Notes under the pieces: model-generated
The model's input: the letters and a program-made list of their open reading frames with translations, nothing else
The model's database searches: none
Told to the model about the DNA's origin: nothing
Made by a program: the position numbers and the translations under genes
Origin: Burkholderiales bacterium
Lineage (GTDB): Bacteria; Pseudomonadota; Gammaproteobacteria; Burkholderiales; Casimicrobiaceae
NCBI GenBank assembly: GCA_025927765.1
Contig: JAICKU010000034.1
Location: 1 to 38,683, forward strand
DNA length: 38,683 nucleotides
Reading direction: 5' to 3'
Part shown: piece by piece, positions 6,941 to 38,683 of the stretch
Numbering within the stretch: the first letter of the stretch is position 1
Layout: each line of letters begins with the position of its first letter

Positions 6941-8860
6941 TTACGTCTTCGCGGCCCCGCTCACTTCCAGCATCAGCTGATTCACGCGCCGCACGAACGC
7001 GGCCGGATCGTCGAGCTGGCCGCCTTCGGCGAGCAGCGCCTGGTCGAAGAGCACGGACGCCCAGTCGTCGAAATGCCGCTCCTCGTGCTCGAGGCGCTCG
7101 ACCACTGGATGCTTCGGGTTGAGCTCGAGGATGGGTTTCGTGCTCGGCGCCTCCTGCCCCGCCGCCTTCAGCATGCGCGCGAGGTTGGCCGACAGGTCGT
7201 GCTCGTCGGCGACGAGGCATGCCGGTGAATCGGTGAGCCGGCGCGTAAGCCGCACGTCCTTCACGCGCTCGCCGAGACTCTTCTTCACGCGCTCGATGAA
7301 CGGCTTCAGCTCGCCCGCTTCGGCTTCGGCTTCCTTCTTCTCGGCTTCGTCCTCGAGCTTGCCGAGGTCGAGCCCGCCCTTCGCGACCGACACCAACTCC
7401 TTGCCGTCGAATTCGTGCAGGTGCGCGACGACCCACTCGTCGATGCGCTCGGACATCAGCAGCACCTCGATGCCCTTCTTGCGGAACACCTCGAGATGCG
7501 GGCTATTCTTCGCCGCATTGAACGTGTCCGCGGTGACGTAGTAGATCTTGTCCTGCCCCTCCTTCATCCGTCCGACGTAATCGGCGAGCGACACCGTCTC
7601 GTCGGGCGTATCGTCTTGCGACGACGCGAAGCGCAAGAGCGCGGCGATCTTCTGCTGGTTCGGATGATCCTCGCCGATGCCTTCCTTCAGCACGCGGCCG
7701 AACTCCGTCCAGAACGTGCGGTACTTGTCCTTCTCGTTGTCGGCGAGGTTCGCGAGGAGGTCGAGGATCTTGCGCGTCGACCCTGCGCGCAGCGTCTCGA
7801 TGTCCTTCGATTCCTGCAGGATTTCGCGCGACACGTTGAGCGGCAGGTCGCTCGAATCGACGATGCCGCGCACGAACCGCAGGTAGTTCGGCAACAGCTG
7901 CTTCGCGTCGTCCATGATGAACACGCGCCGCACGTACAGCTTCACGCCGTGCCGCGTCTCGCGATCCCACAGGTCGAACGGCGCGTGCGCGGGGACGTAA
8001 AGCAGCAGCGTGTAGTCGTGGCGGCCTTCGACGCGCGTGTGCGTCCACGCGAGCGGATCCTCGAAGTCGTGCGAGACGTGCTTGTAGAAGTCCTTGTACT
8101 GCTCGTCGCTGATGTCGCTCTTCGGCCGCGCCCACAAGGCCGAGGCCTGGTTCACCGTCTCCTCTTCGGTGCCCTTCTCCTGCTTGCCGTCCTTCCATTC
8201 CTCCTTGTGCATGAGGATCGGCTGCAGGATGTGATCCGAGTAGCGATGGATGATCGAGCGCAGCTTCGATCCCGAGAGCAAATCGTCCTCGCCTTCACGC
8301 AGGTGCAGCGTCACCTCGGTGCCGCGGTTCGGCCGGTTGACCATCTCGATCGTGAACTCGCCCTGCCCGTCGGATTCCCAGCGCACGCCCTGGTCGGGCA
8401 TCTCGCCTGCGCGGCGGGTGACGACGGTCACCTTGTCGGCGACGATGAACGACGAATAGAAGCCGACGCCGAACTGCCCGATGAGATTGGCGTCCTTCTG
8501 CTCGTCGCCTGTCAGCTGCCGGAAGAATTCGCGCGTGCCGGACTTCGCGATCGTGCCGAGGTTCGCGACGACTTCGTCGCGGCTCATGCCGACGCCGTTG
8601 TCGGCGACGGTGATCGTGCGCGCGTCCTTGTCGTAATCGACCCGGATGCGGAAATCGGGATCGCCCGCGAGCAGCGCGGGATCGTGCAGCGCCTCGAAGC
8701 GCAGCTTGTCGCACGCGTCGGCGGCATTCGAGATCAGCTCGCGCAGAAAGATCTCGCGGTTCGAGTACAGCGAATGAATCATGAGGCCGAGGAGTTCCTT
8801 CACCTCGGCCTGGAAGCCCAGCGTTTCGCGCGTGGGCCCGTCAGTCTGCGTTTCGCTCAC
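6941..8860 (-). CDS. htpG: Molecular chaperone HtpG (Hsp90)
   Basis: The product is 639 aa, a full-length bacterial Hsp90. The start is a GTG at 8860 ([20 protein letters not shown]), with a weak ribosome site. ATP-binding motifs of the GHKL fold are intact: [15 protein letters not shown] (about 43-56), ADNGVGM (86-92) and [11 protein letters not shown] (128-138). The middle domain carries [10 protein letters not shown] and LNVSREILQ, and the C-terminal dimerisation region is complete. It is a cytosolic ATP-dependent chaperone. It is separated by 112 bp from the upstream hybrid kinase gene on the same strand, so co-transcription is possible but not evident. Confidence 0.97.
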
Positions 8861-11342: not shown

Positions 11343-12518
11343 ATGACCGTCCCCACCCGACCGCCGTGGCTTGCCGCCCTTTTGCTCTGGCTCGCCGGCA
11401 ACGCGCTGCGCCTCACGATCCTGGCGGTCCCGCCGGTGCTCGCGATGATTCGCGACGACCTCGGGCTCTCCGCCACCGAGGTCGGATTGCTGTCGAGCAT
11501 TCCGCCGGCGATGTTCGCGATCGCCGCACTCGGCGGGTCGCTCCTCGTCGCGCGACTCGGCATCCGCGCCGCGATGGTGGGCGGTCTCGTGCTGATCGCA
11601 CTGGGCTCCGCGCTGCGCGGCGTCAGTCCCAATTTCGTCGCGCTTCTCGCCACCACGATCGTGATGTCGTCGGGCGTGGCGTTGATGCAGCCGATCATGC
11701 CCACCGCCGTGCGGCAATGGCTGCCTTCGCGCATCGGGCTCGGGACCGCGCTCTACACGAACGGCCTGCTTGTCGGCGAGATCTTCGCGGTCCTCCTCAC
11801 GCTGCCGGTCGTGCTGCCGCTCGTCGGCGGCAGCTGGCGCATGTCGCTGCTCGCCTGGTCGCTGCCGATCGTGGTGATCGCCATCGTCGTCCACGCGTTT
11901 GCGCCGAGTTCGCGGCGGCCGTCGCTGCACGCCGCGCTGCCCACCGCGTGGATGCCCGACTGGCACAACGGCCTCGTGTGGCGGCTGGGCGCCCTTTTCG
12001 GCTGCATCAACTCGACGTATTTCTGCATGAACGCGTTCATGCCGATCTACCTCGCCAGCCGCAGCCGCCCGGACCTGATCGGGCCGGGCCTCCTCGCGCT
12101 GAACCTCGGCCAACTGCCCGCGTCGCTGCTGCTGCTCGTCGTCGCCGGCAGGCTCGAGCGCGCCGCATGGCCGTACCTCGCGACGGCGATCGTCGGATTC
12201 GCGAGCGTCGTCGGAATCGTCTTCACGGTGGGCACCGCGACGATCGTCTGGGCCGCGCTCCTTGGCTTCGCCGTTGCCGCGCAACTGACGCTCGCGCTCA
12301 CGCTGCCGCCGCTGCTTTGCGCGCCGGACGACGTCGCGCGCACTGCCGCCGGCACGTTCCTGATTTCGTACGGGGCGGCCGTAGCGCTGTCGCTGGTGTG
12401 CGGCGCACTGTGGGACGTCTCGGGAGTCCCGGCGCTGGCCTTCGTGCCGCTCGCGCTGTGCATGATCGGCCTCGCACTCGTAACCGCACGGATGTGGCGC
12501 ACGCGCGAACTGCGCTGA
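11343..12518 (+). CDS. MFS transporter, CynX/NimT-like
   Basis: The product is 391 aa from the ATG at 11343 (MTVPTRPPWLAALLLW). An ATG 51 nt upstream is in frame but would add a polar leader. Twelve hydrophobic segments are apparent. The N-terminal half has GLSATEVGLLSSIPPAMFAI and LGIRAAMVGG, the loop 2-3 region typical of the CynX/NimT group of major facilitator carriers. Known relatives export or import small anions such as cyanate or nitroimidazoles; the substrate here cannot be told. It is divergent from the hybrid kinase at 8973-11159 across 183 bp, so regulation by that kinase's pathway is possible but unproven. Confidence 0.88.
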   Translation: MTVPTRPPWLAALLLWLAGNALRLTILAVPPVLAMIRDDLGLSATEVGLLSSIPPAMFAIAALGGSLLVARLGIRAAMVGGLVLIALGSALRGVSPNFVALLATTIVMSSGVALMQPIMPTAVRQWLPSRIGLGTALYTNGLLVGEIFAVLLTLPVVLPLVGGSWRMSLLAWSLPIVVIAIVVHAFAPSSRRPSLHAALPTAWMPDWHNGLVWRLGALFGCINSTYFCMNAFMPIYLASRSRPDLIGPGLLALNLGQLPASLLLLVVAGRLERAAWPYLATAIVGFASVVGIVFTVGTATIVWAALLGFAVAAQLTLALTLPPLLCAPDDVARTAAGTFLISYGAAVALSLVCGALWDVSGVPALAFVPLALCMIGLALVTARMWRTRELR

Positions 12519-26990: not shown

Positions 26991-28166
26991 TCACGACACC
27001 GCCCTTTGCGCCGTGCGTTCCGGCGCCGGCGTCGCGCCCTGCGCGATGCGGCCCTTCCATTCGCCACCACGCCCGCAAAGGTGCGCGTAGGCCGATTCGA
27101 TCGTCATCGCGAGATATGCAGCCGCGATCGCCGGCAGCGCCAGCGCCCACAGGCGCGAGCGCCGATAGAACGCGAGCATCGGCACGAATGCGACGGCCAT
27201 CGCCACCCAGGCGACGAAGCCGAGCACGCGCGCGACGCCGCTGCCGAAGAGCGTGAAGAGCGGGGGCGCGACGAACACGATCAGCATCGACACGACGACG
27301 AATGCGAGTCGCGCCGGCGAATGGCGAAGCTCCGTGTACGCCGAGCGCACGATCATGCGGCGGATGTCGCGGAATGCGCCGTAGCGCCGCGTGCTGGCGA
27401 CGCGTTGCGACAGCGCGAGGTGCAGCGGACCCTGCGGCTTCAGCAGTCGCGCGAGCGCGCAGTCGTCGATCAGCGCGTGGCGAATCGCGGCGATGCCGCC
27501 GGCATGTGCGAGCGTGTCGCGCCGCACCAGCATGCAGCCGCCCGCCGCGCCCGCCGTCGCGCGGCGCGCGTCGTTGACCCACGCGAACGGATACAGCATC
27601 CGGAAGAAGAATACGAACGCAGGCACGAGTGCGCGCTCGGCGACGCTGTCGCAGCGAAGCAGCGCCATCCGCGACGCGAGCACGAGCCGCTTGGCCTCCG
27701 CGAGTGTCACGAGCGTGCGCAGCGAATCGCGCGCATGGCGGATGTCGGCGTCGGTCAGCAGCAGGTAATCGACGTCGCCCGCTTCGCGAATGCCGGCGGC
27801 AACCGCCGCGAGCTTGCCCGTCCAGCCGTCCTCGAGCGGAGGCGCAGCGAGCAGCCGCACGCGCCCCGGCGCCGCACGCTCGCGGAGGCCGCGCACGATC
27901 GCGGCGGTGCCGTCGCTGCTGTGATCGTCGACGACGACGATCGAAAAGTCCCCTTCGTAGTCCTGCGCGAGCAGCGCCGCTACGTTGTCGGCGATCGAGT
28001 CGGCTTCGTCGCGCGCGGGAATCACCACGCACACGCTGGGCCAGCGACCGGCGCGGTTCACGTGTCGAAGCTCGTCGCGCTCGCGCGTACGCCAGAAGCC
28101 ACCGCGCGCAGCCAGCAGATAGGCCCAGGCGAGGCATCCCACCGCGGCGGTGAGCGTCGCGATCAA
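26991..28166 (-). CDS. hpnB: Hopanoid-associated glycosyltransferase HpnB
   Basis: The product is 391 aa. The best start is a TTG at 28166 overlapping the hpnA stop as TTGA, with AGGG upstream; this gives a hydrophobic N-terminal helix (LIATLTAAVGCLAWAYLLAA). The GT2 domain has VCVVIPARDEADSI, SIVVVDDHSSDGTA, GWTGKLAAVAAGI and the metal-binding DAD in LLLTDADIRHA. HALIDDCALARLLK is also conserved. Three C-terminal membrane helices follow (about 300-365). HpnB is found in many hopanoid operons; its reaction has not been firmly established. It lies between hpnA and shc. Confidence 0.92.
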   Translation of the reverse strand: MIATLTAAVGCLAWAYLLAARGGFWRTRERDELRHVNRAGRWPSVCVVIPARDEADSIADNVAALLAQDYEGDFSIVVVDDHSSDGTAAIVRGLRERAAPGRVRLLAAPPLEDGWTGKLAAVAAGIREAGDVDYLLLTDADIRHARDSLRTLVTLAEAKRLVLASRMALLRCDSVAERALVPAFVFFFRMLYPFAWVNDARRATAGAAGGCMLVRRDTLAHAGGIAAIRHALIDDCALARLLKPQGPLHLALSQRVASTRRYGAFRDIRRMIVRSAYTELRHSPARLAFVVVSMLIVFVAPPLFTLFGSGVARVLGFVAWVAMAVAFVPMLAFYRRSRLWALALPAIAAAYLAMTIESAYAHLCGRGGEWKGRIAQGATPAPERTAQRAVS

Positions 28167-29155
28167 TGCAGGTACCCTGCGGCGCGAAACCAGTCGACGG
28201 CGTCGTGCAATGCTTCTGCATACGGACGGCTTTGGTACCCCAGTTCGCGCATCGCCTTCTCGCTCGTGAAGAACATCCGGTGCCGCGACATCCGCAATCC
28301 GTCGCGCGTCAGAAGCGGCTCGCGGCCGGTGAACGACGCGATCGCCTCGGCCGCCGTTGCGAGCGGATACAGCGGCGCGCGCGGCAGCTCCAGTCTGGGC
28401 GCACGCCGGCCGGTCAGCCGGGCGATTTCGCCCAGCATCTCGCGCAGCGGCACGTTGTCGCCGCCCAGAATGTACCGCTCGCCCGGCCGGCCTCGCTCGA
28501 GCGCGGCAACGTGGCCGGCCGCCACGTCGTCGACATGCGCGAGGTTCATGCCGGTGTCCACGAACGCGGGCATGCGTCCGCGCGCGGCCTCGACGATCAC
28601 GCGGCCGGTGGGCGTCGGCTTGATGTCGCGTGGGCCGATCGGCGTCGACGGGTTGACGATCACGACGGCGAGGCCGCGTGCCGCGATGCCTTCGACGACG
28701 CGCTCGGCGGCGACCTTGCTCTGCTTGTAGGCGCCGATTGCGTCGGCGACGTCGAGCGCATCGGTTTCGTTCGCCGGAGCGCTGTCGTGCCGGGGCTTCA
28801 GCGTCGCGACGCTGCTGGTGTAGACGACGCGTTCGACGCCCTCCGCGAGGGCCGCTTCCATGACGGTGCGCGTCCCGTCGACGTTCATTCGCACCAGCGC
28901 CGCGGGGTGACGCGTCCACAGCCGATAGTCGGCTGCCGCGTGCACCACGTACTGCACGCCGCGCATGGCGCGGGTCAAGGCCGCCGGATCGCACATGTCG
29001 CCATCGACCGTTTCGAGGCCGAGTCCGGCAAGGTTGTTCCGCCGCGAGGTCGGGCGGACCAGCGCGCGGACGCCGTAGCCGGCGCCGAGCAGCGCCCGGG
29101 CGATCGCCGAGCCGACGAAGCCGCTGCCGCCCGTGAGAAGGACCAGGCCCGTCAT
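28163..29155 (-). CDS. hpnA: Hopanoid-associated sugar epimerase-like protein HpnA
   Basis: The product is 330 aa from the ATG at 29155, which overlaps the stop of the upstream ABC ATPase gene as ATGA. It is an extended short-chain dehydrogenase: the NAD-binding motif is LLTGGSGFVGSAIARALL at the N-terminus, DGDMCDP follows, and the catalytic YxxxK is YKQSK. HAAADYRLW, RVVYTSSVATL and NPSTPIGPRDIKPTPTGR are strong HpnA signatures. The exact substrate is unknown; a sugar-nucleotide or sterol-like role is presumed. It begins the hopanoid core genes. Confidence 0.93.
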   Translation of the reverse strand: MTGLVLLTGGSGFVGSAIARALLGAGYGVRALVRPTSRRNNLAGLGLETVDGDMCDPAALTRAMRGVQYVVHAAADYRLWTRHPAALVRMNVDGTRTVMEAALAEGVERVVYTSSVATLKPRHDSAPANETDALDVADAIGAYKQSKVAAERVVEGIAARGLAVVIVNPSTPIGPRDIKPTPTGRVIVEAARGRMPAFVDTGMNLAHVDDVAAGHVAALERGRPGERYILGGDNVPLREMLGEIARLTGRRAPRLELPRAPLYPLATAAEAIASFTGREPLLTRDGLRMSRHRMFFTSEKAMRELGYQSRPYAEALHDAVDWFRAAGYLH

Positions 29156-30213
29156 TCGGGGATGACCCAGCCGTCGACGAGTGCCAGGTGCACGGTGCGC
29201 CCGATCCCCGTCGCCGTGCCGGAATCCACCGACAGCGACAGCGTCGTCTCGGGGTCGGCGGCCGGCGAGGCCTCGACGACGCTCCGCCCGCCCTGGTACA
29301 GCACACGCGCCACGCGGGCGGCAAAGCCGCGGCCTTCGCCGACGATCGCGAGGTCCTCGGGGCGGATGCAGACCTCGACGTCGCCGGCGGTCTGACCCGG
29401 CGCCGAGCGCACCTCCCATTCGCGTCCGAACAGCGCCACCGTCGAATGTCCGTTCGCGAACGTCTGGGTGACCTGGCCGCGGGCGACCGCACCGGGTCCG
29501 ACGAAGCGGCTGACGACGCCGTCCTGCGGCGTCCGATACAGCGCCGCCGGCGGCGCCACCTGGCGGATGCGTCCCCCGGACATGACGGCCACCCGGTCGG
29601 CGACGCCGAGTGCCTCGGCCTGGTCGTGTGTCACGTAGATCAGCGTCGCTTTCGACAGCTCGCGGAACGCGGCAATCTCGGCCAGCATGCGGGCGCGGAG
29701 GTGCACGTCGAGGTTCGCGAGCGGCTCGTCGAGCAGGACGATGCGAGCCTTCATCGCGAGGCAGCGCGCGAGCGCGACGCGCTGCCGCTGGCCACCGGAC
29801 AACTGCGCCGGACGCCGCTCGGCATAGCCGGTGAGACCCACGGCCGCGAGCGCCGCGTCGACTTCGCGCCCGACATCACGCGCGGCGAGCTTGCGCACGC
29901 GCAGCGGATAACCGATGTTCTCGGCCACCGTCATGTGCGGCCACAGCGCGTACGACTGGAACACCATGCCGATCTGGCGATCCTCGGGCGCGACGTGCAG
30001 CGCGCCGTTGCTCACGATGCGCTCGCCGAAGCTGACGCTGCCACGCTCGGGCCGTTCGAAGCCGGCGATCACCCTCAGCAGCGTGCTCTTCCCGCAGCCC
30101 GACGGCCCCAGCACAGCGACGAATTCGCCGTCCGCCACGGTCAGCGACACGTCGTCGAGCGCCGCCACCGCGCCAAAGCGCTTGGCCACACCTTCGATCG
30201 TCAGGGCTGCCAC
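29152..30213 (-). CDS. ABC transporter ATPase, Fe(III)/2-aminoethylphosphonate/polyamine class
   Basis: The product is 353 aa. Walker A is GPSGCGKST (36-44), the Q-loop lies in GMVFQSYALWPHMTVAEN, the signature is LSGGQRQR from about 138, and Walker B is IVLLDEP ending at about 164. A C-terminal TOBE-like region (about 230-350; VCIRPEDLAIVGEG) places it with FbpC/PotA/PhnT-type importers. It overlaps the permease gene by 13 bp upstream and hpnA by ATGA downstream, so its translation is tied to both. Substrate is discussed under the binding protein. Confidence 0.93.
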   Translation of the reverse strand: MAALTIEGVAKRFGAVAALDDVSLTVADGEFVAVLGPSGCGKSTLLRVIAGFERPERGSVSFGERIVSNGALHVAPEDRQIGMVFQSYALWPHMTVAENIGYPLRVRKLAARDVGREVDAALAAVGLTGYAERRPAQLSGGQRQRVALARCLAMKARIVLLDEPLANLDVHLRARMLAEIAAFRELSKATLIYVTHDQAEALGVADRVAVMSGGRIRQVAPPAALYRTPQDGVVSRFVGPGAVARGQVTQTFANGHSTVALFGREWEVRSAPGQTAGDVEVCIRPEDLAIVGEGRGFAARVARVLYQGGRSVVEASPAADPETTLSLSVDSGTATGIGRTVHLALVDGWVIPE

Positions 30214-31916
30214 GGCAGGACCCCACGCGCGGTGCGCGACGCGAACGCGTTGGCGATCAGCATCAGCGCGAGCGTGACGAGCACGGCGATCACGGCGACC
30301 GCCGCGGCCGACACGGCGTCACCCGCCTGCTCGAGGCTGAACAGCACGACGCCGACGGTTTCCGACCCGGCCGACCACAGCAGCGCAGACACCGTGAGTT
30401 CGTTGAAAGCCATCATGAACACGAGCATGCCGCCGGCTACGGCCGACGGCGCGATCATCGGCATGATCACCGTCGCCACGCGCCGCGCGAAGCGCGCCCC
30501 GCTCATCCGTGCCGCTTCGTCGAGGCTGGGATCGATCTGGCGCAGCGCGTTCGTCACCGGCCGCAGCGCGAGCAGCAGGAAGCGCGACAGGTACGCGACC
30601 AGGATGATCCAGATCGTGCTGTAGAGCGAGAAGCCGACGATCGGCAGCGGCCGCAACAGGCAGAGGATCATCGCGATCGCGAGCACGACGCCGGGCAGCG
30701 CGTACGGCAGCTCGGCGACGAAGCCGACGACCTGGCGAACGCCAGGCGGGCGCCCGGCCAGCGAATAGCCGAGCGGCACCGACAGCATCACGAGCACCAC
30801 CGCCGCACCCGCGGCGAGCGACGCGCTGTTCAGGAACGCGCGGCGCGTGGCGGCGTAGTCGAACAGCACGAAGTGGAAGTTCGCGAGCGTCGCCGTTTTG
30901 GGACCGAGCGCCACGCCGATCGCCGGCACGAGCGCCGTCGCCGCGAGGGCTGCGAACGGCAGCGCCAGCACGAAGAAGAGCGCGAACCAGCACACGCCTT
31001 CGGCGATCGGCCGGGCGCGTCCCAGCGACCACGCCGGCGCTGCGGTGGCGAGCGCCGCCACGCGCACGTCCTTGCGCCGGCCGAGCCAGCCGTTCAGCAG
31101 CAGCCCGCCGAGGGCGATCAGCGCGAGCAGCAGCGACAGCGCGGCGACTTCGGACAGCACGCCCGTCCCGAAGCCGGCGAGCCGCTGGTAGATCAGCGTG
31201 ACGAGCACGGTGAAGCCGGCGGGAATGCCGAGGAACGCAGGGATGCCGAAGTTGCCGATGCAGCCGACGAAGGCGAGCATCGCGCCCGCTGCGACACTCG
31301 GCATCGCGAGCGGCAGCACGATCGTCCCCACGATGCGCCATGGCCGCGCGCCCGACGCCTGCGCCGCCTCGACCAGATCGCGCGGCAGCGCACGCAGTCC
31401 CGCGCGCACGGCGAGGAACACCACCGGCGCCTGCTCGATGCCAAGCAGGAGTGCGATGCCGGCGGCGCCGTACAGCGGGTGCGGCGAGCCGGGCGCGGGC
31501 GCGAGTCCGACGGCACGCAGCAGCGTGCTGTTGGGCCCGAGCAGGTTGATCCACGCGAGCGCGGTGACCTGCGGCGCAATCATCAGCGGCATCATGAACG
31601 AGAACACCAGTGCCTTCTTCGCGCGAATGTCGGTCAGCGTGACGAGCAGCGCGAACGACGTGCCGAGGGCGAGCGAGAGCGCCGTGCCGCCGATCGCCAC
31701 GACGATCGTGTTGCGCGCCGCGCGCCACACCGTCGGGCTTTCCAGCACGCCGGCGAAGACCGCGGGATCGAACACGCCGTGCGGCGCGATCGCCTCCTGC
31801 GCGAGCCGCGCGATCGGCACCAGCGCCAGCAGGCCCACCAGGGCCAGCAACAGCACGAACGCGACGCGTTCTCCGCGCCGCGCGCCCGTCCAGGGCAGGG
31901 CGAGCGCGCCGCTCAC
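30201..31916 (-). CDS. ABC transporter permease, duplicated FbpB-like
   Basis: The product is 571 aa. It is two permease domains fused in one chain, each with its own ATPase-docking EAA-type loop: EAAQASGARPWRIVGTIVLP in the first half and EAARMSGARFARRVATVIMP in the second. About twelve membrane segments are seen. This fused form is typical of ferric-ion and 2-aminoethylphosphonate type importers. Its ATG overlaps the binding-protein stop by ATGA, and its 3' end overlaps the ATPase gene. The three genes are one operon. Confidence 0.93.
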   Translation of the reverse strand: MSGALALPWTGARRGERVAFVLLLALVGLLALVPIARLAQEAIAPHGVFDPAVFAGVLESPTVWRAARNTIVVAIGGTALSLALGTSFALLVTLTDIRAKKALVFSFMMPLMIAPQVTALAWINLLGPNSTLLRAVGLAPAPGSPHPLYGAAGIALLLGIEQAPVVFLAVRAGLRALPRDLVEAAQASGARPWRIVGTIVLPLAMPSVAAGAMLAFVGCIGNFGIPAFLGIPAGFTVLVTLIYQRLAGFGTGVLSEVAALSLLLALIALGGLLLNGWLGRRKDVRVAALATAAPAWSLGRARPIAEGVCWFALFFVLALPFAALAATALVPAIGVALGPKTATLANFHFVLFDYAATRRAFLNSASLAAGAAVVLVMLSVPLGYSLAGRPPGVRQVVGFVAELPYALPGVVLAIAMILCLLRPLPIVGFSLYSTIWIILVAYLSRFLLLALRPVTNALRQIDPSLDEAARMSGARFARRVATVIMPMIAPSAVAGGMLVFMMAFNELTVSALLWSAGSETVGVVLFSLEQAGDAVSAAAVAVIAVLVTLALMLIANAFASRTARGVLPWQP

Positions 31917-32902
31917 CCGCCGAACAATTCGGCAAACCGCTTCTTGTTTTGTTCGTCGTGCTGCAAGAGCTCACCGATGTCGACCGGCAGGATCTTGAGC
32001 GAGCCGACGTCGGGGAAGCCCGCCGGCGGCTTCACGTCCTTGCGCGCCGGGAAGTAGCCCTGCGACACCGCGAGCTCCTGGCCGTCGCGCGACAGCAGGA
32101 AGCTCACGAACGCCTTGGCGGCGTCGGGATTCTTCGTGCTCTTGATGATCGCCGTGGGCTCGGTGACGATGGACACGCCCTCGGTGGGAAAGACGAAGTC
32201 GACCGGCGACCCTTTCGCCTTCGCGTTCAGCGCCATGAACTCGACGATGATCCCGTACATCTTCTGGCCGCCGGCCACCGCGTTCAGCACCGCGCCGTTG
32301 CCGCGCAGCGCGACGGCGCCGTTCTGCGCGAGCTTCGCGTAGTAGTCGCCTCCGATCGCCGGGTTCTGCGTAAGCGCCGCCATGTGGATGGCGGCCGCAC
32401 CCGAGTAGAGCGGGCTCGGCAGCGCCACCTGCCCCTTCGCCTCGGGCTTCAGCAGGTCCTTCCACGACTTCGGCCGCATCGGCGCCTGCGAGTTGACGAT
32501 GATGCCCGTGGTAATGATCTTCGTGCCGAAATACGTCTTGTCCTTGTCGTAAGCGTCGGGCGGGAATTCGCGCACGTCGGCCTGCGGGTAGGCCATCAGC
32601 TGGTTGGCGGCCTTCAGTCGCTCCATCGACAGTGCGTCGGCGATCAGCAGCACGTCGGCGCGCGGCGCACCGGCGGCGATCTCCGCCATCAGCTTGCTCA
32701 TCACCTCGGTCGTGCCCGAGCGGTAGATCTCCACCTCGACGCCCGGATGCTTCTTCTTGAAGCCCTCGACGGTGCGCTGCGCGTCGCGGTCGGGCTGCGA
32801 CGTATAGAGCACGAGCTTGCCGGTCGCCTGCCCGAACGCCGGGACGGCGAGCACGAGCGCGAGCAGGCCGGCAGCGAGCGTGGCGATGCGATTGTTCTTC
32901 AT
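31913..32902 (-). CDS. ABC transporter substrate-binding protein (FbpA/AfuA-like)
   Basis: The product is 329 aa from the ATG at 32902, with AGGAG eight bases upstream. A signal peptide (KNNRIATLAAGLLALVLAVP, cleaved near FGQA) exports it to the periplasm. GKLVLYTSQPDRDAQRTVEG and FKKKHPGVEVEIYRSGTTEV are typical of the FbpA/PotD-like cluster, as are AAGAPRADVLLIADALSMERL and TEPTAIIKSTKNPDAAKAF. The paired tyrosines that bind iron in FbpA (motif NNYYW near residue 195) are not at the matching place, where EFMALNAKAKG is found, so ferric iron is not assured. Phosphonate, sugar or another anion is possible. First gene of the long operon. Confidence 0.88.
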   Translation of the reverse strand: MKNNRIATLAAGLLALVLAVPAFGQATGKLVLYTSQPDRDAQRTVEGFKKKHPGVEVEIYRSGTTEVMSKLMAEIAAGAPRADVLLIADALSMERLKAANQLMAYPQADVREFPPDAYDKDKTYFGTKIITTGIIVNSQAPMRPKSWKDLLKPEAKGQVALPSPLYSGAAAIHMAALTQNPAIGGDYYAKLAQNGAVALRGNGAVLNAVAGGQKMYGIIVEFMALNAKAKGSPVDFVFPTEGVSIVTEPTAIIKSTKNPDAAKAFVSFLLSRDGQELAVSQGYFPARKDVKPPAGFPDVGSLKILPVDIGELLQHDEQNKKRFAELFGG

Positions 32903-33121: not shown

Positions 33122-33550
33122 CTACTCGGCGCACAGCGCGCCCGATCCCCCCATCTCGCCGGGCAGGTCGCGGAACTTCGGCAGGCCGTCGTGCATCGGC
33201 AGCACGCTTTCGCCGTAGTGGACGTGAAGTGTGGGCGCGTGCCGCAGTGCCGGGATCGTGGCCGCGTACACGTCGACGAGGCCGAAGCCTGGATGGTCCG
33301 TCATCACGTGCCCGCCGCAGCGGCTGCAGAACTTGCGGTCGCTGTGCTCGGTCTTGCGGTACCCCCGAAGGCTGTCGGCGCCCTTCACGACGTTCACCGA
33401 CTCGGGCTTCCACAGCGTGAACGCATTCACCGGCGCCGCCGACCAGCTGCGGCACGACGCGCAGTGACAATAGCCCTGGGCGACGGGCTCGCCCGTCACG
33501 CTGATCTGCACGGTGCCGCAAAAGCAGCTTCCTTCGTACGTCATGGTCAT
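33122..33550 (-). CDS. Gfa-family (glutathione-dependent formaldehyde-activating-like) zinc protein
   Basis: The product is 142 aa from the ATG at 33550, preceded by GGAGAAG; an ATG two codons later is possible. It has the Cys pattern of the Gfa/CENP-V zinc fold: GSCFCGTVQI near the N-terminus, GYCHCASCRSW, and KFCSRCGGHV. The family name comes from a formaldehyde-glutathione enzyme, but most members are of unknown function. Its start overlaps the stop of the small membrane-protein gene upstream (ATGA), so the two are co-translated. A GAAAC-type box lies upstream of the pair at 33835-33852. Confidence 0.9.
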   Translation of the reverse strand: MTMTYEGSCFCGTVQISVTGEPVAQGYCHCASCRSWSAAPVNAFTLWKPESVNVVKGADSLRGYRKTEHSDRKFCSRCGGHVMTDHPGFGLVDVYAATIPALRHAPTLHVHYGESVLPMHDGLPKFRDLPGEMGGSGALCAE

Positions 33551-33783
33551 GATCGCTTCTCCATGGATGGGATCGTGGTGATCGAACGTGGCGCATCGAC
33601 TGCCCTCGCCCGCGCTTGCGCCGTCGCCGGCGGTGTGCGCTGCACGGGCGTCGCGACCATAGCATGTCGCTCGATCGAGGCGGGCAGCAGCACGAGCACC
33701 CCGAGCGTCGTGCACACCATGACGACCGCGGCGCAGGCGAGCGCGACGCGGGGCGAAGCCGTTTCGAAGTGATCGCGGTTCAT
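33547..33783 (-). CDS. Small single-helix membrane protein, hypothetical
   Basis: The product is 78 aa with one hydrophobic segment (about 13-34; VALACAAVVMVCTTLGVLVL), a short basic N-terminal tail and a Pro/Ala/Arg-rich C-terminus. No family is recognised. Support comes from context: its TGA overlaps the Gfa gene's ATG, and a tandem GAAAC box sits 52-69 bp upstream of its start. No clear ribosome site precedes the ATG at 33783. It might be a membrane partner for the Gfa protein, but nothing shows this. Confidence 0.55.
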   Translation of the reverse strand: MNRDHFETASPRVALACAAVVMVCTTLGVLVLLPASIERHAMVATPVQRTPPATAQARARAVDAPRSITTIPSMEKRS

Positions 33784-33834
33784 GGGGCGAGTGTCGCGCG
33801 CTCGCCTTGCTACGCGATTTCACTCGCGGTGCGC

Positions 33835-33852
33835 TTTCGTTTCGTTTGTTTC
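33835..33852 (-). promoter_or_regulatory. Tandem GAAAC box 3, upstream of the small-protein/Gfa operon
   Basis: On the minus strand it reads GAAACAAAC followed directly by GAAACGAAA, two 9-bp direct repeats. The same layout occurs at 38503-38520 and 38563-38580 beside the OmpR-type regulator gene. OmpR-family regulators bind short direct repeats, so this is a candidate site for that regulator. It also lies just past the stop of the kinase gene. Confidence 0.55.
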
Positions 33853-33860
33853 AGGCGACG

Positions 33861-36653
33861 TCAGCGTGGCGCGGCGCGGCGATATTCCGAAGCCACCTCG
33901 GCGACGACGCGCCGCACCTCGCTCGGCAGGAACGGCTTCTCGATCACGCGGCGTCCGCTCTCGCGGGCGAAGTCGCGTAGCTCGGAGGCGAGCGTGTCGC
34001 CGGTCACGAACACCACACGCGGCGCCTGCGCGGGCCAGCGGCGTGCAATCTCCGCGTATAGCGCACGGCCGTCGAGATCCGGCATGCGGATGTCGGTGAG
34101 CACGACGTCGAAGCGGGCCGACCGCAGGCGCTCGAGTGCCTCGCGGCCGCTGCAGGCCGTCGTCACGCGATGGCCGGCACCGCCGAGGATGTCTGCGAGC
34201 GATTCGCGGATATCCGGCTCGTCGTCGACGACGAGCACCGCATGCGCCGGGGCGCTCACGGGCGCGAGCGGCTCTTTGCGAAGCGCCTTGCCGACGGACG
34301 CGCCTGCGGGCAGCGTGATCACGAACGAAGCGCCTCGATCCGGCGGCGATTCGACGACGAGCGTCCCGCCGTGCGCCTCGACGATCCCGAGGCTCACCGC
34401 GAGGCCCACGCCCGTGCCCATGCCGATCGGCTTGGTGGTGAAATACGGCTCGAACACCCGTGCGCGAAGGTGGGGCGGAATGCCCGGCCCGTTGTCGGCC
34501 ACGGTGATGCGCACGACATCGGCCGGTGCATCGAAGCGGCTCGTGATCGTGATGCGGCGCGGTGCGGGCCGTTCCGAGAGGGCCTGCTGGGCGTTGATGA
34601 CCAGGTTCAGCAGCACCTGGTGAAGCTGGTCGTCGTCGGCCTGCACGAGCGGAAGGTCCGGCGCGAGGTCGAGCACGAGCTCGATGCCCGTCGTGCGAAT
34701 CGCGTACGCGGCGATGTCGAGCGCCGCGGTGACGACCTCGTTGATCGCGACCGGGCCACGCGCGGGCCGTTGCTGGCGCGCCATCGCTAGGAACGTGCGC
34801 ACGATGCGCGCGCAGCGTTCGGCGGCGCTGCGAATCTTGACCGCGGCCGTCTGCGTGGCGGCATCGCCGCGCTCCTCGAGCAGCACGGCGCGCGCCACGA
34901 CGACCGACAGCGGGTTGTTGAGCTCGTGCGCGACGCCCGCGAGCAGCGAGCCGAGCGCTGCGAGCTTCTCACGCTGGTACACCGATTCGCGCTGCCGCGC
35001 GAGCTCCTCCTCCGAGCGCTTCTTCTCGGTGATGTCGCGCGCGATCGTCAGCACGTGCGGCTTGCCCTGGTATTGCATCGGCACCGCGTGCACCTCGAGC
35101 CGGATCGGCGTGCCGTCCTCGCGCGCCTCGGTCACCTCGACGTGCCGCGATTCGCCCTTCGCTACCACCGCCAGCAGATCGCGGTGGAATGCCGGCCCGG
35201 CGAAGGCGCCGGGACGCATCGCGCGGAAATCGGCATCGCTGTGGCCGTACATGCGCCACAGCGCCGGATTCACGTCGACGATCTCGCCTGCTGCGTTCCA
35301 CAGCGCGAGCCCGTCGATCGACGCGTTGAACATGGCGTGATACTGCTCCTCGCTCGCGCGCAAGGCCTCCTCGGCATCCTTGCGCGCGCTGATGTCGCGC
35401 GCGAGCGCGAGCACGCGATCATGGCCGCCGATGCGCACGCGCTTGACGAACACCTCGTACCAGCGCAGCACGCCGTCCTTGCTGCGGCCGCGCCATTCGA
35501 TGCGAAGCGCGTCGCCGGCATACGCCCGCGCGATGATGTCGCGCGCATCCTGCCGCGCGTACGGGCGCTGCCCCGTCCCGAGCACGCCCACGTCGAGCGC
35601 ACGGAATTCGTCGCGCGTGTAGCCGAACGCGGCGCACGCCTTCAGGTTCACGTCGACGATCACGCCGCTGCCGACGTCGTGCACGAAAATCGCGTCTTCC
35701 GAGGCATCGAAGATCGCGCGATAGCTCGCCTCGGAGATCTCGAGCTCCCGCTGCACCCGCGCCCGATGCGCGATATCGGTACGAAGCCGCGTCTGCGTCG
35801 ACGCCACTTCGGCGGCCATCGCGTCGAACGCGCGCGACAGCCGCCCGAGCTCGTCCTTGCCGCGCAGGCTCGCGCGCGCCGCAAGGTTGCCCGCCGCGAG
35901 CTCTTCGGCCGCGCGCACGAGACGCGCCGTGCGGCGCGTGAGCAGGACGTGGAACACGAGCCACATCGCGAACGCGAGCGCGCTCACCCAGCCCGCCCAA
36001 TACAGCGACTGCTGCACGACCTGCGCGCGCGCTTCCGCCTGGTAGCGCTGCAGGTCGTAGGCGAGGAACAGGCCGCCGGTGCGCGACGGCCGCAGTTCGT
36101 CGCGCTCGCGGCCCATCAGCACACCCGCATGCGCGAGCAGTTCCTTGCCGTTCGAGCTGATGGCGATGCCCGCGCGCCGTTCGCGGATCGCCCGCATCGC
36201 GTCGTCGAGGTTGAACTGCGGCGACACGTCGGCGATCGGCCGATCGAGCCACGCGCGCCGCGTCGCCGCCAGCACCACGTTGCGATCGTCGGTAAGCGCG
36301 GCGAGCACGACGTCGTGGTTGTGCGCGAGCACCGCGATCTCGTGCTGCGCCGCCTCCACGTCGCCCTTCAGCAGCAGATACTCGAGCGTGCTTTGCAGCC
36401 GCGACATTTCCTGCGCGAGCCGCTTGCGGCTCTCTTCCTCGGCCTCGTGCTCGGCCTGCGGCACGTGATACAGCAGGTTGACGGCGGAGAGGATGCCGGT
36501 GAACGCGAGCAGGATCAGCGGCACGGTGAACTTGAGCGATGCCGGGACACGATCGGCCGTCCAGGACGATGCGCGGCGCGGCCACGTCCGATGCAGCCAC
36601 ACGCTCCATTGGCGCCACGCGGCCGAGAGCGCGGGCGCACGTACGCCGTTCAT
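33861..36653 (-). CDS. Hybrid sensor histidine kinase with two PAS domains and receiver
   Basis: The product is 930 aa. In order: membrane helix about 41-62, periplasmic sensor about 63-216, helix about 217-238, HAMP about 239-292, PAS 1 about 305-425, PAS 2 about 435-545, a HisKA domain with His576 in GVAHELNNPLS, ATP-binding motifs NLVINAQQAL (683-692) and DNGPGI (720-725), then a receiver domain (about 804-920) with DDEPD and phospho-acceptor Asp854 in VVLTDIRMPDLDG. It starts four bases inside the solute-binding lipoprotein gene (ATGA), implying the two work together: the lipoprotein could present a ligand to the periplasmic loop. No HPt domain is present. Confidence 0.93.
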   Translation of the reverse strand: MNGVRAPALSAAWRQWSVWLHRTWPRRASSWTADRVPASLKFTVPLILLAFTGILSAVNLLYHVPQAEHEAEEESRKRLAQEMSRLQSTLEYLLLKGDVEAAQHEIAVLAHNHDVVLAALTDDRNVVLAATRRAWLDRPIADVSPQFNLDDAMRAIRERRAGIAISSNGKELLAHAGVLMGRERDELRPSRTGGLFLAYDLQRYQAEARAQVVQQSLYWAGWVSALAFAMWLVFHVLLTRRTARLVRAAEELAAGNLAARASLRGKDELGRLSRAFDAMAAEVASTQTRLRTDIAHRARVQRELEISEASYRAIFDASEDAIFVHDVGSGVIVDVNLKACAAFGYTRDEFRALDVGVLGTGQRPYARQDARDIIARAYAGDALRIEWRGRSKDGVLRWYEVFVKRVRIGGHDRVLALARDISARKDAEEALRASEEQYHAMFNASIDGLALWNAAGEIVDVNPALWRMYGHSDADFRAMRPGAFAGPAFHRDLLAVVAKGESRHVEVTEAREDGTPIRLEVHAVPMQYQGKPHVLTIARDITEKKRSEEELARQRESVYQREKLAALGSLLAGVAHELNNPLSVVVARAVLLEERGDAATQTAAVKIRSAAERCARIVRTFLAMARQQRPARGPVAINEVVTAALDIAAYAIRTTGIELVLDLAPDLPLVQADDDQLHQVLLNLVINAQQALSERPAPRRITITSRFDAPADVVRITVADNGPGIPPHLRARVFEPYFTTKPIGMGTGVGLAVSLGIVEAHGGTLVVESPPDRGASFVITLPAGASVGKALRKEPLAPVSAPAHAVLVVDDEPDIRESLADILGGAGHRVTTACSGREALERLRSARFDVVLTDIRMPDLDGRALYAEIARRWPAQAPRVVFVTGDTLASELRDFARESGRRVIEKPFLPSEVRRVVAEVASEYRRAAPR

Positions 36654-37627
36654 CGCTTGAGGGCCACGAGCGGCGCCGGTGCGAGCACGGTCTCGATGTC
36701 GAACCCCTTGCGCAGCAGCCGGGCGTCGACCATCAGCGTCATGAGGCGGCGGCCGGTCACGGCGAGCGTCGGCGCGCTGCCGCCCAGCATCCGCAGGTTC
36801 TCCTCACGCGTGGGCACGTGCAGCCCCTTCTGCGCTTCGCGAAACTGCTCGCCGCTCGTTTGCTGGCGCACGCCCATCCGCCGTGCCGCATCGGCCGGCT
36901 CGCGCTCGATGTAGTCGAGCGCGTCGAACCAGCCATTGAGCAGCGACGACACCGCGTTGGGTTGCCGCTCGAGCACCTCCGCGCGAACGGCGACGAGGTC
37001 GACGATCTCGCCGGGAATGCGCGTGCTGTCGAACAGCGTCACCGCACCGGCGCGCAGGAACTGCGTGCGGTAGGGGTCGAACGTGACGGCCGCGTCGACG
37101 CGCCCCTTCTCGAACGCGCTCGGTTGCTCGTTCGACTCGAGGTGCACGACGTTCACGTCGCTCGCCTGCATCGACGACAGCGCGAGCGCGCGGCTCAGCA
37201 CGAAGCCGCCGAGCGCGCCGCTTTCGACGGCGACCGATTTGCCCTTGAGATCGCGCATCGACGTCATGCCGCGACGCCCGACCACGACGTCGGCGCCGCT
37301 CGACACGTCGACGACGAGGACGACGCGCGGCGCGAGGCCGTCGACTGCGAGTCCGAACAGTTCGTCGAGGCTGATCACCATGCCGTCGATCGCCTGGTTG
37401 CGATAGGCGCGCAGCACTTCGCTCGCCGACGGGTATTCGACGAGTTGCACCGCCGCGGGATCGAGGCGACCGAGATCGCGCGCGAGGTAGAGCGGTTCGC
37501 TGCCGATCCAGACGTTCGTGCCGATGCGCAGCGCCGGCTCCGGTGCACGCATGCATGCAGCAAGCGCCACTGCGAAGGCGGTGGTGGCGAGCATACGGAG
37601 CAACGAAGCGAGCGCGAGGCGTGTCAT
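36650..37627 (-). CDS. Solute-binding lipoprotein, NMT1/SsuA-like, in a two-component operon
   Basis: The product is 325 aa from the ATG at 37627, three bases after the regulator stop. A lipoprotein signal ends at the LAAC lipobox (Cys25). The body matches the nitrate/sulfonate/thiamine-precursor binding class: RIGTNVWIGSEPLYLARDLG, SASEVLRAYRNQAIDGMVIS, LKGKSVAVESGALGGFVLSR and KGRVDAAVTFDPYRTQFL. No ABC permease or ATPase gene of that class is nearby. Its place between an OmpR-type regulator and a hybrid kinase, with overlapping genes, suggests it serves as a ligand sensor for the kinase, not a transporter part. The ligand is unknown. Confidence 0.88.
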   Translation of the reverse strand: MTRLALASLLRMLATTAFAVALAACMRAPEPALRIGTNVWIGSEPLYLARDLGRLDPAAVQLVEYPSASEVLRAYRNQAIDGMVISLDELFGLAVDGLAPRVVLVVDVSSGADVVVGRRGMTSMRDLKGKSVAVESGALGGFVLSRALALSSMQASDVNVVHLESNEQPSAFEKGRVDAAVTFDPYRTQFLRAGAVTLFDSTRIPGEIVDLVAVRAEVLERQPNAVSSLLNGWFDALDYIEREPADAARRMGVRQQTSGEQFREAQKGLHVPTREENLRMLGGSAPTLAVTGRRLMTLMVDARLLRKGFDIETVLAPAPLVALKR

Positions 37628-37630
37628 GGG

Positions 37631-38341
37631 TCAGGTCCCATCCGGTACGAACACGTAGCCCTCGTTACGCACCGTGCGGATGTAACGCGGATGCTCGGGG
37701 TCGGGCTCGATCTTCTTGCGCAGGCGCATGACGCGCAGGTCGACGCTGCGGTCGAACGGATCCCAGTCGCGCCGTTGCGTGAGGTTCAGGATGCGCTCGC
37801 GCGACAGCGCGCGATTCGGATGCTCGGCGAGCGCCTTCAGGAGATCGAATTCGAGCGACGACATCGCGACATCCGCGCCGTCCGCGTCGGTCAGCCGATG
37901 CGCGCCGAGATCGAGCACGCAGCGGCCGATGCGCACGCGCGCCGCGCCTATATCGCCGCGGCGCGCAGCCGCCGTGCGCCGCAGCACGCTCTTCACGCGC
38001 GCGAGCAGTTCGCGCGGATCGAACGGCTTCGCGACGTAATCGTCGGCACCCATCTCGAGGCCGACGATGCGATCGACCACGGTGCCGGCCGAGGTCAGCA
38101 TCACCACGGCAAGATCGGCATAGCGCTCGCGCAGGTGGCGCGCGAGGCTCAGGCCGTCCTCACCGGGCATGTGGATGTCGACGATGGCGAGGTCGAAGGG
38201 TTGCCGCGCCACGAGCGCCTTCGCGGCCTCGGCATTGGCCGCGGCGACGACCGTAAAGCCGTGCGCTGCCAGGTATTCGTCCAGGACCTCGCGGACGTCG
38301 GGTTCGTCGTCGACGACGAGGATCGTGGCCTGCGCGTGCAT
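37631..38341 (-). CDS. OmpR/PhoB-family response regulator
   Basis: The product is 236 aa from the ATG at 38341, with GGGAG six bases upstream; a longer open frame upstream has no such site. The receiver domain has the acidic pair in VVDDEPDV, phospho-acceptor Asp55 in AIVDIHMPGEDG, the Thr/Ser switch in VMLTSA and Lys in VAKPFDP. The C-terminal winged helix is complete (SSLEFDLLKALAEHPNRALS, then RSVDLRVMRLRKKIEP and YIRTVRNEGYVF). It leads the operon with the binding lipoprotein and hybrid kinase. Tandem GAAAC boxes at 38503-38520 and 38563-38580 are its likely sites. Confidence 0.95.
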   Translation of the reverse strand: MHAQATILVVDDEPDVREVLDEYLAAHGFTVVAAANAEAAKALVARQPFDLAIVDIHMPGEDGLSLARHLRERYADLAVVMLTSAGTVVDRIVGLEMGADDYVAKPFDPRELLARVKSVLRRTAAARRGDIGAARVRIGRCVLDLGAHRLTDADGADVAMSSLEFDLLKALAEHPNRALSRERILNLTQRRDWDPFDRSVDLRVMRLRKKIEPDPEHPRYIRTVRNEGYVFVPDGT

Positions 38342-38502
38342 AGACACTCCCACGCTTGCGGACGGCCCACCGTGCTGCTCGCTCCGCGTCTCCGCGGTTG
38401 CGGACGCCACCGGGCCCTTTCCGACCCGCTCGCGATCGTACGCCTCCGTGCGCCAAGCATAAACACGCCTTCGGCAAGCCAGGAAGCCTGCGCGGGCGGA
38501 TT

Positions 38503-38520
38503 GAAACAAACGAAACAAAA
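38503..38520 (+). promoter_or_regulatory. Tandem GAAAC box 1
   Basis: GAAACAAAC followed directly by GAAACAAAA. It lies about 160 bp upstream of the regulator start and is nearer that gene than box 2. It is the same design as the box before the small-protein/Gfa operon, suggesting autoregulation by the OmpR-type protein. Confidence 0.58.
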
Positions 38521-38562
38521 ATGGGACGCCCCCCGCACGCCGTTTGCCGCTCGTGCGCTCGG

Positions 38563-38580
38563 GAAACAAAGGAAACACAA
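38563..38580 (+). promoter_or_regulatory. Tandem GAAAC box 2
   Basis: GAAACAAAG followed directly by GAAACACAA. It begins exactly 60 bp after box 1 and 99 bp before the ATG of the divergent gene at 38662, so it may control that gene. Confidence 0.58.
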
Positions 38581-38661
38581 ACGCGCGGCCGCCGAAATCG
38601 CGGGGCGACGTCGCGCGCCTAGAGTCGCTCCATCGCCTCACTGCGACGAAAGGAACGCGAC

Positions 38662-38683
38662 ATGACGCACGAATTCGACGCGC
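38662..38683 (+). CDS. Start of an unidentified gene, cut by the right edge
   Basis: An ATG at 38662 follows AAAGGAACGCGAC, a fair ribosome site, and reads MTHEFDA before the window ends. Seven codons are too few to identify the protein. It is divergent from the two-component operon and preceded by a tandem GAAAC box and a possible -10 (TAGAGT at 38620), so it is a candidate target of the regulator. Confidence 0.5.

Follow-up and report, generated by a model that had tools for sequence, protein, structure and literature searches.

Three A-rich boxes mark the promoters beside a putative sensor-regulator operon in a Burkholderiales bacterium of the family Casimicrobiaceae (contig JAICKU010000034.1, of which we analyzed a stretch of 38,683 nucleotides, hereafter the window). 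Each box is 18 bp long and consists of two abutting 9-bp repeats that begin with GAAAC. Three genes on the minus strand abut one another and, as read from the gene layout, form one putative operon: an OmpR/PhoB-type response regulator (37631..38341), our proposed binder of the boxes; an NMT1/SsuA-like substrate-binding protein (SBP; 36650..37627) with a lipoprotein-like start by eye; and a hybrid PAS histidine kinase (33861..36653) with HAMP, two PAS stretches, HisKA, HATPase, and a receiver domain. Past the kinase stop come the left box, then a protein of 78 amino acids (33547..33783, minus strand), and then a GFA-family protein (33122..33550, minus strand; above the Pfam cut-off). The 78-amino-acid protein has one hydrophobic stretch by eye and a homologue in the same place in a related genome (G008), and found no family match in the Pfam/NCBIfam scan. 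At the right end, a plus-strand gene begins at 38662 and reaches the window's edge (38662..38683). Since the last 141 bases of the window (38543-38683) are the reverse complement of the end of another contig of the same draft genome (G000:C58, 81662-81802), C58 continues the window, and through this continuation and Pfam the gene, which a preliminary description of the sequence had called unknown, is seen to encode a DUF1127 protein.

The regulator has both domains of the OmpR/PhoB family, a receiver (PF00072, 105.9 bits) and a winged helix (PF00486, Trans_reg_C, 80 bits), each above cut-off, in agreement with the preliminary description, which had called it OmpR-type. It differs from OmpR and PhoB themselves in falling below the equivalog cut-offs: its best NCBIfam match is OmpR (NF007005) at 255.1 bits against a cut-off of 331, and it scores 184.6 bits against the PhoB equivalog TIGR02154, whose cut-off is 296.2. 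The SBP scores 122 bits against the aliphatic sulfonate protein SsuA (TIGR01728), below the cut-off of 163.5, and its nearest solved chain is an aliphatic-sulphonate-binding protein (2x26_A, 1.6e-9). A gene for a periplasmic binding protein in a putative operon with a kinase and a regulator is the arrangement of SBP-dependent three-component systems. In AioXSR, too, the genes for a periplasmic binding protein, a kinase, and a regulator lie together, but that system responds to arsenite and has been assigned to the sigma-54 family (PMC7533571), whereas the system here combines an OmpR-type regulator with an SsuA/NMT1-type SBP.

The boxes are rare and confined to this operon. All three of the boxes first described are exact 18-mers, at 33835-33852 (minus), 38503-38520 (plus), and 38563-38580 (plus). 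Allowing up to two mismatches to GAAACAAASGAAACNNAA, the window holds three matches where 0.01 are expected, and three or more occurred in 0/100 shuffles. GAAACN4GAAAC, a looser pattern allowed up to one mismatch, is weaker evidence (0.91 expected per window; three or more in 8/100 shuffles), and that frequency is what would favor reading the boxes as A-rich repeats that arose by chance in a GC-rich genome. Chance is refuted by the expectation for the full 18-mer together with the conservation across genera reported below, where the spacing to the −10 element is also fixed, and we give it practically no credence. Across the whole draft (4,011,206 bases, 4.01 Mb, in 148 contigs), the exact 18-mer pattern returns four rows, which are three distinct sites, all at the window operon; the fourth row (C58:81765-81782) is not an extra site but the 38563 box on the overlapping contig, which genome-wide counts thus take twice. 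The preliminary description had seen a common, scattered motif as one outcome that would undo it, and this did not appear. With two to three mismatches there are 11 further rows vs. 7 for a reversed control pattern, so these weaker sites lie near background and we rejected a genome-wide scatter of weaker boxes. An Rfam search of the window returned nothing at gathering score.

Alignment of the downstream DNA indicates that the boxes belong to a longer promoter, of which each forms the upstream portion. The design reads GAAACAAAC-GAAACAARA, 13 nucleotides (nt), GAAAT, 6 nt, GNNAC, 10 nt, TAGANT, with GAAACAAA at logo positions 1-8, GAAACAARA at 10-18, GAAAT at 32-36, GNNAC at 43-47, and TAGANT at 58-63, and with half-sites spaced by 9, 22, and 11 bp; the sequence between these conserved blocks differs widely among loci. 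In 9/20 exact boxes (a count that includes copies above another box and one unrelated L068 match), TAGANT follows the 18-mer at a distance of exactly 39 nt; elsewhere it occurs at 0.0013 per position. The right-hand promoter, directed at the DUF1127 gene on the plus strand, is complete in the window: an exact main distal box (38563..38580, the 9-bp tandem GAAACAAAG-GAAACACAA), the third half-site GAAAT (38594..38598), the fourth half-site GCGAC (38605..38609) 11 bp past the third, and the −10 element TAGAGT (38620..38625) 39 nt past the box. The remaining plus-strand box (38503..38520) lies 60 bp above the main box and has no −10 in register. Extra copies above the main box also occur at 48 bp in L077, 54 bp in L074, 60 bp in L061, where the main box is degenerate, and 83 bp in L062. 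On the minus strand, the exact box at 33835..33852 precedes both the small-protein and GFA open reading frames, as first described, and is followed by GAAAT (33817..33821), a weak fourth half-site GCAAG (33806..33810), and a degenerate −10 position GACACT (33790..33795) only 6 nt ahead of the small frame's ATG. The left promoter may therefore be weak or give a leaderless transcript, unless translation truly starts at a codon further on; the promoter's counterpart in G008 has TAGACT as −10.

The downstream half of this design resembles promoters activated by PhoB. A pho box consists of two 11-nt repeats (PMC4415409), and the pho box and core promoter require strict spacing (PMC10294691). When we measured E. 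coli phoA (L209), TGTCA lay at 469 and 480 and TATAGT at 496; the GAAAT/GNNAC pair shares this geometry, with direct repeats at an 11-bp pitch in the −35 place and 15 bp from half-site to −10. Judged from sequence, 11-bp repeats in place of a −35 at a fixed distance from the −10 correspond to a PhoB-type class II promoter. Unlike PhoB sites, the half-site here is GAAAC rather than TGTCA, and an additional pair at a 9-bp pitch lies 22 bp upstream. Tandem half-sites that paired DNA-binding domains of the same family would occupy also recall OmpR and RstA, but the repeats of the RstA box, TACATNTNGTTACA (PMC4117788), are 10 bp apart, whereas ours are 9 and 11 bp apart.

So rigid a promoter could instead be read by an alternative sigma factor of the extracytoplasmic function (ECF) type, with GAAAC or GAAAT as its −35, TAGANT as its −10, and the operon as a mere neighbor. 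The −35 elements of ECF promoters can be GAAC-like, and TAGANT is unlike TATAAT. However, a tandem-binding activator better fits the multiple half-sites (as many as four, spaced by 9, 22, and 11 bp) and the extra boxes 48–83 bp upstream, the 21-nt gap between GAAAT and TAGANT exceeds the usual −35/−10 spacer, and the promoter tracks one regulator clade (below). We consider an ECF-like sigma factor quite improbable.

The promoter accompanies the operon wherever the operon can be assessed. Close SBP orthologs occur in 4/22 genomes of the genus and, at 70% identity or more, in 4/399 sampled genomes of the order (two others at 39 and 42% were not counted); they are also found in records named Aromatoleum, Variovorax, Schlegelella, and Competibacter, with 12/25 loci at ~67% or more. 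A plasmid collection searched with the SBP gave no match at E ≤1e-40. After duplicates were removed (L066 = G008, L070 = G014, L072 = G090) and the window, G015, and G173 were added, there were 15 distinct operon loci. The box is present at 14/14 assessable loci (L067 was left out because it starts inside the regulator gene): 13 are exact for GAAACN4GAAAC and G015 has one mismatch. Loss of the box from relatives that keep the operon, the other outcome that would have undone the preliminary description, was thus not seen. It lies directly upstream except in L125 (~1.9 kb upstream of the regulator) and L076 (~1.4 kb upstream of the SBP). L076 has boxes at 224 and 5038, either side of the SBP-kinase genes and with the same flanks over ~85 nt, a pattern that duplication of a segment would leave. 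Exact boxes in G026, G032, and G362 were not accepted as members; these genomes have no SBP ortholog and no match at E ≤0.001 to the promoter model described next.

Because the 18-mer with one mismatch is not specific enough (45/399 order genomes matched), we built a sequence-only model, R1, from 19 promoters and ran it against 399 genomes of the order, 64 of the family, and 17 chosen ones; its training rows match by construction and its E-values are rough. In the window, the right-hand promoter (50.0 bits) and the left-hand one (42.1 bits over 33786-33853) are training rows, and the 38503 box is a partial match at 22.6 bits. Strong matches in the 17 chosen genomes contrast with a noise level below ~19 bits. 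Outside the training set, 14 matches reach at least 30 bits (4 in the L067 genome, 4 in G014, 2 in G814, and 1 each in G015, G148, G295, and G046). Under stricter filters and E ≤0.001, 11/399 order genomes match, comprising 4/4 with the operon and 7/395 without it (Fisher's exact test, 3e-7). Five of the seven nonoperon matches have a regulator of 49–58% identity and a P0003-like kinase on the same contig, at regulator-to-match distances of ~80 bp (G202), 220 bp (G093), 400 bp (G295), 2.9 kb (G403), and 12.5 kb (G046). In G403 another box lies 69 bp upstream of the regulator; the same genome also has two exact boxes 322 bp apart (L203, 10615 and 10937) downstream of the kinase. The family sample gave R1 matches in 8/64 genomes, 4 of them with the operon. 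The others are G815 (by its identical coordinates, the L067 genome), G021, where the end of a kinase (72%) lies 91 bp ahead of the match, G814, where a kinase remnant lies beside it, and G016, whose weak match (22.8 bits) precedes a FAD/BBE gene like the one behind the Variovorax box. Kinase remnants in the L067 genome (L161, 365-1066) and in G814 (L215, 9408-9563) adjoin small-protein-type R1 promoters, a hint that the system has decayed or been rearranged there. The promoter design recurs in about two dozen genomes beside one sensor-regulator family.

Regulators linked to the box also form a clade. Our tree held 27 regulators, in which those labeled as box-linked (17) group with two that lack a nearby box at a support of 98/96; L067 was labeled by matches elsewhere in its genome and L205 by a match 12.5 kb away. 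The stretch of the alignment that we take to be the recognition helix reads RSVDLR(V/I)MR(L/V)R(K/R)K among the 12 close regulators; in the five distant ones it is RSID(L/I)R(I/V)(M/A)RLR(R/K)K.

Several observations weigh against tying the promoter to this regulator. Relatedness of the loci inflates simple statistics such as the one above. A 52% relative (G599) has no promoter match above background, nor does its contig L130, and R1 matched nothing in the 3.7-kb loci of two regulators from within the clade, L190 and L196. Conversely, G186 (46.8 bits) and G148 (35.6 bits) carry the promoter with no same-clade regulator found in drafts that are 92 and 98% complete, and 3/15 operon loci (L072, L075, and L076) keep it while the adjacent regulator is broken or not found. 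Finally, two extra sites in the genome studied here score only 23.6 and 22.9 bits. Most genomes compared are drafts. Six relatives at 37–42% (L063, L078, L079, L080, L093, and L094) showed no R1 match in the DNA examined. In the three loci with a broken or missing regulator (L072 at 7870-8043, L075 at 11361-11609, and L076), the SBP and kinase are intact and the box is kept; by eye, L075 has the first part of the regulator followed by transposase-like frames. Such loci, with G186 and G148, are what an unlinked transcription factor would predict if it bound the boxes and the operon were one among its regulated places. Against an unlinked factor stand the five genomes that R1 found blind, each with a same-subfamily regulator ~80 bp to 12.5 kb away on the contig of the match, and the fit of direct repeats with PhoB spacing to the OmpR/PhoB protein family; we regard such a factor as unlikely. 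Together, the sequence evidence suggests that the boxes are probably promoter-distal operators of a regulon under a two-component system made up of the presumably periplasmic SBP, the hybrid PAS kinase, and the OmpR/PhoB-type regulator, and very probably mark genes that this regulator switches on.

Orientation of the promoters argues for targets other than the regulator gene itself. The preliminary description had the two right-hand boxes flank the regulator's promoter and had the regulator probably control itself; both boxes are in fact directed at the DUF1127 gene, and the regulator starts more than 160 bp away from either. In 11/11 loci (window included) where the regulator is intact, at 74% identity or more, and a box lies upstream, the box points away from the regulator, so auto-regulation through the boxes is not supported there, and no shared promoter was seen by eye on the regulator side. 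Only two relatives have a promoter aimed at a gene of the system, L075 at the SBP and L204 at the regulator. The local regulon originally proposed holds in being box-marked and tied to an OmpR-type regulator, but it is not merely local: related sites lie outside the locus in relatives, a feature missed earlier along with the standing of the box as only the distal part of a promoter and the absence of a registered −10 at 38503.

Genes behind the promoter are diverse, and the same families recur in different genomes. First open frames were chosen by position and codon-position GC, and family assignment used Pfam/NCBIfam or a BLAST match with a member that had itself been scanned. DUF1127 genes lie up to 0.9 kb downstream in five loci (this genome, G008, G014, G015, and G202) and GFA genes in five genomes (this one, G008, G014, G814, and G021). 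Found three times each are OsmC (G148, G046, and G800; 69–73% identical), alpha/beta hydrolase (G015, G186, and L068, there as second gene), TPR protein (L069, L077, and a weak site on C123 of this genome), FAD/BBE (L073, L074, and G016), and MddA (G014, a weak site on C12 of this genome, and a 60-amino-acid remnant in G814), with the MddA proteins of G014 and C12 both above the equivalog cut-off. DUF2917 occurs twice (L068 and L077). Single cases include CysK, globin, DsrE (weak site), PLD, an ABC transporter, an MFS efflux protein, Lipoprotein_15, an RTX/PEP-CTERM protein, a ferritin-like protein (by eye), and unknown secreted proteins. Recurrence extends to sites away from the operon, as for GFA in G014, where the gene is on a contig other than the operon's, and FAD/BBE in G016. 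The operator is thus retained across species, but its targets differ from one to the next. In this genome, we count the DUF1127 gene and the small-protein/GFA operon as sure members, in keeping with the membership first proposed, which promoter placement supports; the MddA-like methyltransferase (C12) and the TPR protein (C123) are weak candidates. Further left in the window and on the minus strand, 28163-29155 encodes the hopanoid-associated sugar epimerase HpnA (481.9 bits vs. an NCBIfam cut-off of 367.65), and 29152-32902 holds ABC transporter genes for an ATPase, a fused-looking permease, and a binding protein, the ATPase and binding protein being nearest to putative 2-aminoethylphosphonate transporters, below those cut-offs.

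Mechanistically, the layout suggests activation at a bipartite operator. Ligand-bound SBP would change the kinase, leading to phosphorylation of the regulator, which would then bind head to tail at the GAAAC half-sites. The 9-bp pair GAAACAAAC-GAAACAARA would serve as its anchor at ~52–69 bp upstream of the expected start, and the 11-bp pair GAAAT...GNNAC, at the place of a pho box, would replace the −35 hexamer. With that pair in the −35 place, the regulator could recruit sigma-70 polymerase to the TAGANT −10. In this account the phosphorylated regulator would activate rather than repress. Behind this fixed operator, the target set would change quickly between species. Small DUF1127 proteins bind PhoR, the sensor kinase of a PhoB-type system, in Agrobacterium (PMC12501420), and we propose from this parallel that the DUF1127 product encoded beside the operon may be a feedback partner of the kinase. 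A DUF1127 gene stands behind the promoter and beside the operon or regulator in five loci here; the proteins predicted from the open reading frames (97–176 amino acids) are longer than the short ones in the account of that study.

What the system senses can be suggested only tentatively. The SBP family and the presence of MddA, CysK, OsmC, and DsrE among the targets hint at a sensor of organosulfur or thiol-reactive compounds, in which an SsuA-like SBP would signal through the kinase to a four-site regulator complex (9-bp anchor and 11-bp PhoB-like pairs) driving MddA, CysK, OsmC, DsrE, and GFA, with DUF1127 as negative feedback on the kinase and with targets swapped while the operator is kept; we view this whole scheme as speculative and rather unlikely to hold in full. 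Among the matches listed by searches of the open-access literature, the exact 14-mer occurred in unrelated papers only, no NMT1-SBP/hybrid-kinase/OmpR system was recognized, and queries pairing MddA with two-component systems or DUF1127/DUF2917 with response regulators likewise revealed no such system.

The promoter signature lets the targets of an uncharacterized two-component family be read from draft genomes and connects a defined regulator with DUF1127 and further genes whose role is unknown. Its 9/22/11-bp half-site layout departs from the single 10–11 bp pair of PhoB and RstA, and it offers a natural case in which an operator stays fixed over wide distances as the genes behind it change.

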